From Crocinitomicaceae bacterium (lineage in GTDB: Bacteria > Bacteroidota > Bacteroidia > Flavobacteriales_D > Crocinitomicaceae), in contig JAQWHI010000019.1 of NCBI GenBank assembly GCA_029249445.1, positions 62,001 to 126,000 on the forward strand: DNA of 64,000 bases. The letters run 5' to 3'. Shown one piece after another: positions 17,240-19,735 of this stretch (position 1 is the first letter of the stretch; each line of letters begins with the position of its first letter). The position numbers and the translations under genes were made by a program. The notes beneath the pieces were generated by a model. The model worked only from the letters and a program-made list of their open reading frames with translations. It was not told the origin of the DNA and made no database searches.

Positions 17240-19735
17240 ATGGAACAAAATCTAATTTATATATTGCCTGCTTTTGGTATTATCGGATTGGTCTACATGC
17301 TTTTCCTATCATCATGGGTAAAGAAGCAATCGTCTGGTAGTGATAAAATGAAGAAATTGTCAGGATACATTGCAGATGGTGCTTTGGCATTCCTTAAAGC
17401 AGAATATCGAATGCTTGCTGTATTCGTTGTGATTGCTGGAGGTGCTCTTGCAGCTTTATCTGCACTTGAACTAATCCCTGCAGGAATGTTCATTGTCGCG
17501 GCTTTCGTAATAGGTGCTGTTTTTTCAGCTGTCGCTGGTAACATTGGTATGCGCATCGCAACAAAAGCAAACGTTAGAACTGCTGAAGCAGCAAAAACAA
17601 GTTTACCTAATGCGATGAAAGTTGCCTTCCGTGGAGGTACCGTAATGGGACTTGGTGTTGCAGGATTGGCCATTTTTGGATTGTCTACAATTTTCATTTT
17701 TCTCCTTTTTAACGCTGGAGGTGCTGAAACATTAGATAGCGCGGGAATGAGTGTTGTTCTTGAAACATTAGCAGGGTTTTCTTTAGGTGCTGAATGTATC
17801 GCTCTTTTCGCAAGAGTTGGTGGAGGTATCTACACAAAAGCTGCCGATGTTGGAGCTGATTTAGTAGGTAAAGTAGAGGCTGGAATCCCAGAAGATGATC
17901 CACGTAATCCAGCAACTATTGCTGATAACGTAGGTGACAATGTTGGTGATGTTGCGGGAATGGGAGCGGATTTGTTCGGCTCATACGTAGCAACAATGTT
18001 GGCGGCAATGGTTTTAGGAAACTACCTCATTGAAGGGATGCCAGGATACACTGACAACTTCGGAAATATGGGCCCAATCTTAATGCCCGTTTTAATTGCA
18101 GGTGTAGGACTGATCTTTTCTATTGTTGGAACATGGGTGATCCGAATCAAAAACAACGACGCCAAAGAAAAGCAAGTACAAGGAGCATTTAACCTAGGAA
18201 ACTGGGGGTCTCTTCTTTTGACAGCTGTTGCTTCTTTCTTCATCATTCAATGGATGCTTCCTGCCAAAATGGAAATGGAATTTTTTGGAGAAGGAACTAA
18301 GGAAATCGGATACAATCGTGTATTTTATGCCGTGCTTATTGGTCTTGCTGTCGGAGGATTAATTTCCATGTTAACCGAATATTACACGGCAATGGGCAAG
18401 CGTCCTGTTATGGGCATTATCAAAAACTCCTCGACGGGTGCCGCGACAAATATTATCTCTGGTCTATCACTAGGTATGATGTCGACTGCCGCTCCAATTA
18501 TCCTTTTCGCTGGTGCGATCTGGGGAGCTTATGAATGTGCTGGTTTCTACGGAGTTGCGATTGGCGCTTCTGCGATGATGGCTACAACTGCACTTCAATT
18601 GGCTATTGACGCCTTCGGACCGATAGCTGACAATGCAGGTGGTATTGCCGAAATGTCTGAACTGGCTCCTGAAGTGCGTGAGCGCACAGACATCCTTGAT
18701 GCTGTTGGTAATACAACTGCAGCTGTAGGTAAAGGATTTGCAATCGCATCTGCTGCATTGACTGCATTGGCATTGTTTGCTGCTTATGTAACATTCACAG
18801 GAATCGAAGGAATTAACATCTTTAAAGCAGACGTATTGGCTGCACTATTTATTGGTGGCATGATACCGGTTGTTTTCTCTGCAATGGCTATGAGCTCAGT
18901 GGGTAAAGCAGCTATGGCTATGGTAAAAGAAGTCCGTCGTCAATTCAAAGACATCCCTGGAATTATGGAAGGGGAGGCCGAACCAGAATACGAGAAGTGT
19001 GTTGATATTTCAACAAAAGCTGCATTAAAAGAAATGATGCTGCCTGGTATAATTACAATTGTTACTCCAATTATTGTAGGTTTTTTAATGGGAGCAGAAG
19101 CACTCGGATCTTACATGGCTGGTGTGACTGTGTCTGGAGTTCTTTGGGCCATCTTCCAAAACAATGCTGGTGGCGCGTGGGACAACGCTAAAAAATCATT
19201 TGAAGCAGGAGTTATGATTGATGGAGAAATGACATACAAAGGTTCAGAAGCTCATAAAGCAGCAGTTACCGGAGATACAGTTGGAGATCCATTCAAAGAT
19301 ACGTCTGGTCCTTCAATGAACATCTTGATCAAATTAACGTGTCTTATTGGACTTGTTATTGCTCCTATCTTAGGAAATGGTCATGGTGGCCAAGATGAAT
19401 CAGCAGCAGCATGTGCAGGAGACAAAATAGAGTGCTCTTCAAAAAAAGACCGTTGTAGCGACGCATCTGAGTGCTCTTCAAAAAAGAGTTCTTGCAATGA
19501 AAAAAACATGAAATGTGATATGTCACAATGTGCTGAAATGACATTCGATGAATGTATGGCACACTGTGATGCTAAAGGATGTTCTCAAGAAGAAAAAGAA
19601 ATGTGTGCAAAACACTATGACTCCGAAGGGAACTGGACAGGAAAAAAACAAAAAGAATGCTGTAGTAGTGAAAAATCATCTTGTAAAGATGGTGCTTCCA
19701 AAAAAGATTGCTCGTCTCAAGGCAAAGCCTGTTAG
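17240..19735 (+). CDS. hppA: Membrane-bound ion-translocating pyrophosphatase with Cys-rich tail
   Basis: 831 residues, longer than usual. Residues 1-712 form the pyrophosphatase with about 16 membrane helices; the catalytic loops carry YTKAADVGADLVGK, EDDPRNPATIADNVGDNVGD and the C-terminal TVGDPFKDTSGPS. GNTTAAVGKGFAI (Ala after NTT, Gly before KGF) fits the K+-dependent subclass; proton versus sodium pumping cannot be decided. It couples pyrophosphate hydrolysis to outward ion pumping at the inner membrane. Residues 713-831 are a hydrophilic tail with 16 cysteines, arranged in part as repeated ECSSKK units and an MTFDECMAHCDAKGCSQEE segment, probably metal- or redox-active (inference). Strong terminator downstream. 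Confidence 0.97.
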   Translation: MEQNLIYILPAFGIIGLVYMLFLSSWVKKQSSGSDKMKKLSGYIADGALAFLKAEYRMLAVFVVIAGGALAALSALELIPAGMFIVAAFVIGAVFSAVAGNIGMRIATKANVRTAEAAKTSLPNAMKVAFRGGTVMGLGVAGLAIFGLSTIFIFLLFNAGGAETLDSAGMSVVLETLAGFSLGAECIALFARVGGGIYTKAADVGADLVGKVEAGIPEDDPRNPATIADNVGDNVGDVAGMGADLFGSYVATMLAAMVLGNYLIEGMPGYTDNFGNMGPILMPVLIAGVGLIFSIVGTWVIRIKNNDAKEKQVQGAFNLGNWGSLLLTAVASFFIIQWMLPAKMEMEFFGEGTKEIGYNRVFYAVLIGLAVGGLISMLTEYYTAMGKRPVMGIIKNSSTGAATNIISGLSLGMMSTAAPIILFAGAIWGAYECAGFYGVAIGASAMMATTALQLAIDAFGPIADNAGGIAEMSELAPEVRERTDILDAVGNTTAAVGKGFAIASAALTALALFAAYVTFTGIEGINIFKADVLAALFIGGMIPVVFSAMAMSSVGKAAMAMVKEVRRQFKDIPGIMEGEAEPEYEKCVDISTKAALKEMMLPGIITIVTPIIVGFLMGAEALGSYMAGVTVSGVLWAIFQNNAGGAWDNAKKSFEAGVMIDGEMTYKGSEAHKAAVTGDTVGDPFKDTSGPSMNILIKLTCLIGLVIAPILGNGHGGQDESAAACAGDKIECSSKKDRCSDASECSSKKSSCNEKNMKCDMSQCAEMTFDECMAHCDAKGCSQEEKEMCAKHYDSEGNWTGKKQKECCSSEKSSCKDGASKKDCSSQGKAC
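19430..19485 (+). repeat. 17-nt direct repeat inside the hppA tail
   Basis: GAGTGCTCTTCAAAAAA occurs at 19430-19446 and again at 19469-19485, encoding ECSSKK twice in the cysteine-rich tail. A third, diverged copy of the peptide (ECCSSEK) occurs further on. This points to growth of the tail by local duplication. Confidence 0.7.

Follow-up and report, generated by a model that had tools for sequence, protein, structure and literature searches.

The hppA gene and its C-terminal tail

The window, that is, the whole stretch of 64,000 nucleotides analysed here, carries a gene for a membrane pyrophosphatase, HppA, whose product extends beyond its last membrane helix into a cysteine-rich tail. The features of the locus, all on the plus strand, are as follows.

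17240..19735, plus strand: hppA, membrane pyrophosphatase with a C-terminal cysteine tail, 831 aa (PF03030, NF001955)
17240..19375, plus strand: 16-helix pump core, residues 1-712 (predicted helices; Foldseek to solved membrane pyrophosphatases)
19376..19732, plus strand: cysteine-rich C-terminal tail, residues 713-831, 16 Cys; putatively periplasmic (helix parity; envelope-type domains at the equivalent place in relatives)
19376..19510, plus strand: N-side linker, predicted disordered, two ECSSKK units (pLDDT 25-50; Cys-spacing statistics over relatives)
19430..19446, plus strand: 17-nt repeat, copy 1, exact
19469..19485, plus strand: 17-nt repeat, copy 2, exact
19511..19642, plus strand: conserved 44-aa module, residues 758-801, with Cys 759, 764, 772, 776, 781 and 789 (alignment, pLDDT 84-89)
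19643..19732, plus strand: C-side linker with a CC motif and a terminal Cys, predicted disordered (pLDDT 28-40)

HppA is encoded in a single unbroken reading frame, and the Pfam family PF03030 matches its residues 14-707 over the complete profile (1-645 of 645; E 4.7e-259; 861.9 bits against a cut-off of 29.7). The NCBIfam model NF001955 (sodium-translocating pyrophosphatase) scored 1183.6 bits against a cut-off of 1059, which suggests that HppA belongs to the sodium-translocating group, with pyrophosphate hydrolysis and transport as its predicted activities. The full-length AlphaFold2 model contains 16 helices of at least 21 residues, counted by hand, and its comparison by Foldseek with solved membrane pyrophosphatases gave a best E of 4.2e-47 and a TM-score of 0.88 (target-normalised) to 4a01_A. 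The window protein is a membrane pyrophosphatase with an uncatalogued C-terminal module. The genes around it encode, by Pfam, a lipoyl ligase, a SIS-domain phosphosugar isomerase-like protein, a thioesterase, a glycosyltransferase 9, a MOSC protein, an S9 peptidase and a formate-THF ligase; neither a metal gene nor a functional clue was found among these neighbours.

The original prediction had described a tail of about 119 residues with 16 cysteines, rich in Lys, Glu and Ser, and this tail is indeed present, intact and in frame. The rest of the protein (residues 1-711) contains 4 Cys in total, and when the Cys rate of this core is itself taken as the baseline, at least 16 Cys per 120 residues have a probability of 1.8e-17. 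The 17-nt DNA repeat GAGTGCTCTTCAAAAAA that accompanies the ECSSKK units is exact, but it occurs in two copies only. The segment MTFDECMAHCDAKGCSQEE, noted as a possible small folded unit, is real and lies inside a conserved block with a confidently predicted mini-fold. A frameshift or a mis-assembly can be ruled out, because relatives from many independent assemblies bear homologous tails in frame (107 distinct module-bearing HppA tails). The statement that typical family members end soon after the last helix fails for the Bacteroidota examined: 52 distinct low-Cys HppA tails from named relatives, a set recruited with the window's own protein and biased accordingly, have a median length of 106.5 aa (range 30-219).

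A conserved module between variable linkers

The tails of relatives share a gap-free block of 44 residues despite linkers that are highly variable, repeat-like and of different length from tail to tail. Cysteines at module positions 15, 19, 24 and 32 were kept in 104, 106, 105 and 106 of 106 distinct modules, a count that excludes one doubtful hit (two loci). Position 7 is Cys in 87 of the 105 copies that reach it and position 2 in 90 of 91. The median dN/dS was 0.29, with values below 1 in all 154 close pairs, which share sequences and are not independent of each other. The module is under purifying selection. A random low-complexity run without conserved cysteine spacing, which the original prediction had named as the outcome that would count against it, is rejected for the module by these near-invariant cysteines and by the dN/dS. 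For the same reasons, and because the module is present on different pump cores, a neutral low-complexity extension spread by repeat slippage is a very improbable account of the tail. It draws on the linkers, whose length is variable and whose repeat-like sequence brings back a Cys after five or six residues, and on the 17-nt DNA repeat; parts of the linkers could have arisen in this way, and for the module it is strongly disfavoured.

Structure prediction separates the same parts. In the full-length AlphaFold2 model, residues 761-800 of the module reached pLDDT 84-89, against 25-50 for the linker before it (residues 711-760, in ten-residue blocks) and 28-40 for the linker on the C-side. Folded alone from an 11-row alignment, the module gave helices at 9-13, 17-27 and 31-39 and a less sure one at 49-54 (mean pLDDT 76, pTM 0.53). 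It is predicted to be a small helical domain between disordered linkers. The tail matched nothing in Pfam or NCBIfam up to E 5, and tail and module matched no known family in PHROGs (best 0.031) or in a profile search of the PDB (best 0.66). Foldseek of the module model against the PDB returned nothing convincing, the best match being an EF-hand at E 0.28; an EF-hand is a helix-loop-helix with a full 12-residue Ca loop. The module is an uncatalogued small domain. Two copies of it occur in a single tail at two loci (L007 of genome G023 and L111 of G167). A second tail element, with a FEGTEAEVKAKIDALK-like end, follows the Cys module in most tails of the genus labelled g42 (L120-L134, except L123) and in L174, and stands without the Cys module in L043 and L044.

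The cysteines of the linkers are arranged in a distinct way. Over the 90 tails in which the full module was recognised by pattern (17 of the 107 were left out), CC pairs were observed 117 times against 78.7 expected, with a maximum of 107 in 500 shuffles. Among the 732 linker cysteines of these tails, CxC occurred once and CxxC not at all, where about 75 of each were expected; Cys three or four residues apart were likewise rarer than expected (30 and 48, with about 70 expected), and those separated by five or six intervening residues were strongly enriched (190 and 184, with about 65 of each expected). Whole tails (n = 107) contain one CxC and two CxxC. This pattern partly reflects the repeat-like make-up of the linkers. 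Metallothioneins are characterised by dense CxC and CxxC motifs, and a metallothionein-like nature of the tail was rejected given the near absence of both. The His fraction beyond the first 15 tail residues was 0.033 in module tails and 0.013 in low-Cys tails, and dense His clusters were found in 5 of 107 module tails and 0 of 52 low-Cys tails; the window tail has none.

Distribution of the module on and off the pump

Of 200 genomes sampled from the window's family, 93 gave a module hit (E 0.01) and 114 have HppA. All 93 module genomes have HppA, so that the module occurs in 93 of 114 HppA-bearing and in 0 of 86 HppA-less genomes; the 21 genomes with HppA and no module hit include some whose HppA is cut by contig ends. 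In the order, 113 of 399 genomes match the module, in a sample that overlaps that of the family. The 395 genomes sampled from the phylum, identified as Bacteroidota by the named relatives, include 381 with HppA and 18 with a match to the module, namely the window's genome, 15 genomes of genus g42 (family f16) and two weak hits, G317 (L135/L138) and G245 (E 3.1e-4 and 0.0083, respectively), which look like chance and were not counted. In g42 the module is present in 15 of 22 HppA genomes; the seven others have HppA and gave no module hit. Fluviicola and Crocinitomicaceae assemblies are among the named carriers. Neither plasmids (72,556 records) nor phages (50,697 records) contained the tail at E 0.01 by tblastn, and a mobile or phage origin was set aside on this basis.

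Cysteine-rich tails also occur without the module, since 15 of 68 named HppA C-termini with a stop codon have at least seven Cys, 10 with the module and 5 without it. Module-less Cys-rich tails are those of L031, L034, L077, L085, L090, L144 (G188) and L147 (G060, 6 Cys in 47 aa); lying partly on other core lineages, they are possibly independent gains. Genome G144 has two HppA genes (L156 and L174), both with the module and with different tails. The HppA of L038, from a record titled Rickettsiales bacterium (PBTY01000071.1), branches among those of Marinoscillum, Ekhidna and Cyclobacteriaceae, and this metagenome assembly is probably mislabelled or mixed.

The relation between pump and tail was analysed in a tree of the HppA core (residues 261-711) with 76 rows, obtained from a first tree of 129 rows by removing 53 by hand (near-copies, long branches, thinning). 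Module bearers fall into three lineages: A, which includes the window (support 100/99), B (87/86, with nine rows that group at 100/92) and C (100/100). Module-less HppA of other families are joined to these lineages or placed between them. The module label changes 9 times on this tree, at least 7 of them forced by starred branches, and also 9 times on the 129-row tree. A single clade of all module bearers was rejected (p-AU 2e-6), as was a single clade of the window's genus (p-AU 5e-5), the groups for both tests having been chosen after the first tree was seen; the window's genus is represented in all three lineages. The module is found on three or more HppA core lineages, also inside a single genus. 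With the lineage groups set by hand, module identity was 0.58 within A and likewise 0.58 between A and B, with 0.60 between A and C and 0.65 within C; it shows no clear correspondence with the core. It seems that cores and tails are recombined or exchanged. The somewhat higher identity within C indicates that module and core may partly travel together. The core tree does not separate gain from loss and 44 residues are too few for a module tree, so three histories are possible: the core was replaced and the tail retained, the tail was transferred, or the tail is old and was lost many times, with paralogues that are hidden. As to a tail conserved and confined to one clade, the conservation stands, the module being found in many relatives, and the confinement does not, as the module occurs on at least three core lineages, as an HppA tail in a second family and off the pump in a third.

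Free-standing relatives of the tail, the search for which had been proposed originally, were found in three genomes of two genera. In G001, of the window's genus, the HppA tail is short and Cys-free (L141), and a separate protein of 119 aa combines a lipoprotein-like N-terminus, a Cys-rich linker and the module (L137:2868-3227). We take its N-terminus to be a lipobox. In G659 and G637, from another family of the order, a protein of 201 or 196 aa (L212, L213) has N-terminal hydrophobic segments (by eye), a linker rich in CC pairs, the module and an end rich in His and Asp; the HppA tails of these two genomes have no Cys (L217, L218). The genes around the free-standing module genes were also judged by eye. 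A membrane anchor is the feature common to the off-pump cases.

The module is not bound to the pump, since these three genomes carry it on separate proteins. The chief objection to a tail that regulates the pump is this finding, which comes from three genomes of two genera. The original prediction had suggested that the tail could couple pumping to metal or redox state, a proposal that is unsupported. A pump gated by metal or redox state, in which the tails of an HppA dimer would sense the metal or thiol state of the periplasm and change pumping, would agree with the fact that nearly all modules found sit on HppA (107 distinct tails). The C-termini of the dimer are also said to lie close together in the plant enzyme, as Liu and co-workers reportedly described in 2009. 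We nevertheless regard such gating as unlikely: besides the three genomes with module and linker on separate proteins, of which G001 has the module only off HppA, 21 of 114 family genomes with HppA lack a module hit (in some of them HppA is truncated at contig ends), module identity and core lineage do not clearly correspond, and the linker before the module is predicted to be disordered. The three off-pump genomes, in which module and pump are naturally apart, offer a way to ask whether the tail has a part in regulating pumping.

Membrane side, thiol state and proposed role

Loop 5-6 is described as closing the active site of membrane pyrophosphatases (PMC5150537), whose catalytic sites are stated to face the cytoplasm (PMC8657866); for the plant enzyme, a lumenal C-terminal loop is reported (PMC5601048). 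With loop 5-6 on the cytoplasmic side and eleven further crossings (helices 6-16), the C-terminus of HppA would be periplasmic. Other Bacteroidota HppA proteins carry at the same end a YceI domain (PF04264; L047:889-3678, E 2.6e-22, and L082:2995-5754, E 2.1e-19) or, in one genome of the window's family (G059, L143), a lipocalin-like domain (PF13648, Lipocalin_4, E 5.7e-10), and we take both to be envelope domains. Together, helix parity and these tails strongly suggest that the cysteine-rich tail lies in the periplasm, on the outer face of the inner membrane. The YceI and lipocalin-like tails resemble the window's in placing a soluble envelope-type domain at the HppA C-terminus, and differ from it in belonging to unrelated families and having no Cys. 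Another conserved HppA tail, of about 120 aa with 0-1 Cys, is present in Schleiferiaceae and Cryomorphaceae (L048, L049, L053, L054, L060 and others); one copy, that of L048, was scanned and matched no Pfam family over the cut-off.

The disulfide-generating enzymes DsbB (PF02600) and VKOR (PF07884), the only two covered by the search, were found in 0 of 9 genomes (the window's and eight relatives, two of them less than 90% complete), with DsbB detected in 6 and VKOR in 3 of 14 control genomes. In addition, Cys numbers in the 107 tails, which are related and not independent, split into 55 even and 52 odd. With neither DsbB nor VKOR found and no bias to even numbers, full pairing into disulfides seems unlikely, and for lack of DsbB or VKOR the thiols are, with moderate confidence, kept largely reduced. 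A Dsb-dependent disulfide-rich exported domain is not supported, as neither enzyme was found in any of the nine genomes. These data also bear on an interaction domain built on disulfides, that is, a disulfide-stabilised helical hairpin that would dock a partner or cross-link the HppA dimer. The predicted helical fold and the four near-invariant Cys are what such a domain would show, and Cys were lost together at positions 7 and 15 in 2 modules and at positions 2 and 24 in 1, too few to call. The evidence for pairing is weak, because position 7 is non-Cys far more often (18 of 105 modules) than position 15 (2 of 106); with the DsbB/VKOR result and the balance of even and odd tails, this makes the disulfide-built domain rather improbable.

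A further possibility is a periplasmic thiol sink or redox buffer without metal, which would shield the envelope from oxidants or electrophiles. Many Cys in linkers predicted to be disordered and rich in Lys and Glu would suit this role, as would the Cys-rich module-less tails in 5 of 68 named HppA and in G188. Sacrificial thiols, however, need no gap-free module under purifying selection with fixed Cys spacing, and we consider a pure sink distinctly improbable.

The reading we favour, at about even confidence, is an anchored periplasmic thiol tail that binds soft metal ions and for which the pump serves mainly as an anchor. The tail would be a portable periplasmic module: a small helical domain bearing four to six Cys sits within a disordered Cys/Lys/Glu-rich linker, and a fused anchor keeps it at the inner membrane. 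This anchor is usually the HppA C-terminus and, in three genomes, a small lipoprotein-like or membrane protein. The thiols of the tail would most likely bind soft metal ions such as Zn, Cu or Cd; candidate ligands are linker Cys, both paired as CC and spaced, the four module Cys that are near-invariant and, in some species, His-rich ends. Such a tail would act as a metal buffer or donor tethered to the membrane. Of the roles originally put forward, metal binding is the best candidate; a lipid-like anchoring role for the HppA tail is unsupported, because HppA is already a membrane protein with 16 helices. Several observations speak against metal binding: the motifs typical of tight metal sites, CxC and CxxC, hardly occur in the linkers, dense His clusters are confined to 5 of 107 tails and do not include the window's, the four near-invariant Cys fit two disulfides equally well, no metal gene lies next to the window hppA, and the tail of HMA4, the pump compared below, is cytosolic. 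Two further observations weigh against the favoured reading: free-standing forms in three genomes of two genera only and the somewhat higher module identity (0.65) within core lineage C.

A broader possibility, at somewhat less than even confidence, is that exchangeable envelope modules (the Cys module, YceI, lipocalin and others) generally dock at the periplasmic HppA C-terminus in Bacteroidota, with the Cys module as a new, swapped, membrane-tethered metal-binding domain that is kept while the pump is replaced. The findings add an uncatalogued domain and a recurring architecture to a well-studied family of ion pumps and suggest that HppA doubles as a carrier of periplasmic modules. Should the tail bind metal, bacteria with no DsbB or VKOR match would carry a thiol-based metal buffer on the periplasmic side of their inner membrane.

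Among the matches listed in the open-licence literature on pyrophosphatases and bufferins, no paper on a Cys-rich HppA tail was found. A similar architecture is that of a Paucibacter membrane pyrophosphatase with a C-terminal OmpA-like domain, cited in a 2024 review in which C-terminal extensions are considered as maybe regulatory (PMC11210485). It shares with the window HppA an extra domain after the last helix and differs in the domain and the phylum, and the passages of the review on this enzyme mention no Cys-rich linker. Bufferins, MerC-bufferin fusions and TIGR04222 proteins are reported to have Cys-rich segments that are predicted to lie at the periplasmic end of a membrane protein; bufferins sequester copper, and the Cys-rich ends are linked to MNIO enzymes (PMC12452194). 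The tail resembles bufferins and TIGR04222 proteins in the predicted periplasmic position of its Cys-rich segment. EGKCG repeats are absent from the window tail, and similar ones occur in a few relatives, for example L041. A bufferin or MNIO-modified RiPP was ruled out, as the MNIO family (PF05114) had 0 matches in the window's genome (94% complete) and was positive in 2 of 14 controls.

In terms of function, a parallel is found in plant metal pumps. Di-Cys motifs in the C-terminal extension of HMA4 are reported to give nanomolar Zn binding (PMC6255694), and the extensions of HMA2 and HMA4 are, like the window tail, C-terminal parts of a pump that are rich in CC pairs and acidic residues, with a His stretch in HMA4. 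Enrichment of CC pairs in the C-terminal extension of the pump, the HMA4-like feature, was likewise found in the module tails. Unlike the window protein, HMA2 and HMA4 are P1B ATPases with the extension on the cytosolic side, and the metal is the pump's own substrate. The comparison is one of working principle, homology not being expected, and a 44-aa module is not mentioned in the passages on these extensions. The spacing of the linker cysteines, unlike that of metallothioneins, comes closer to the di-Cys extensions of HMA2 and HMA4.
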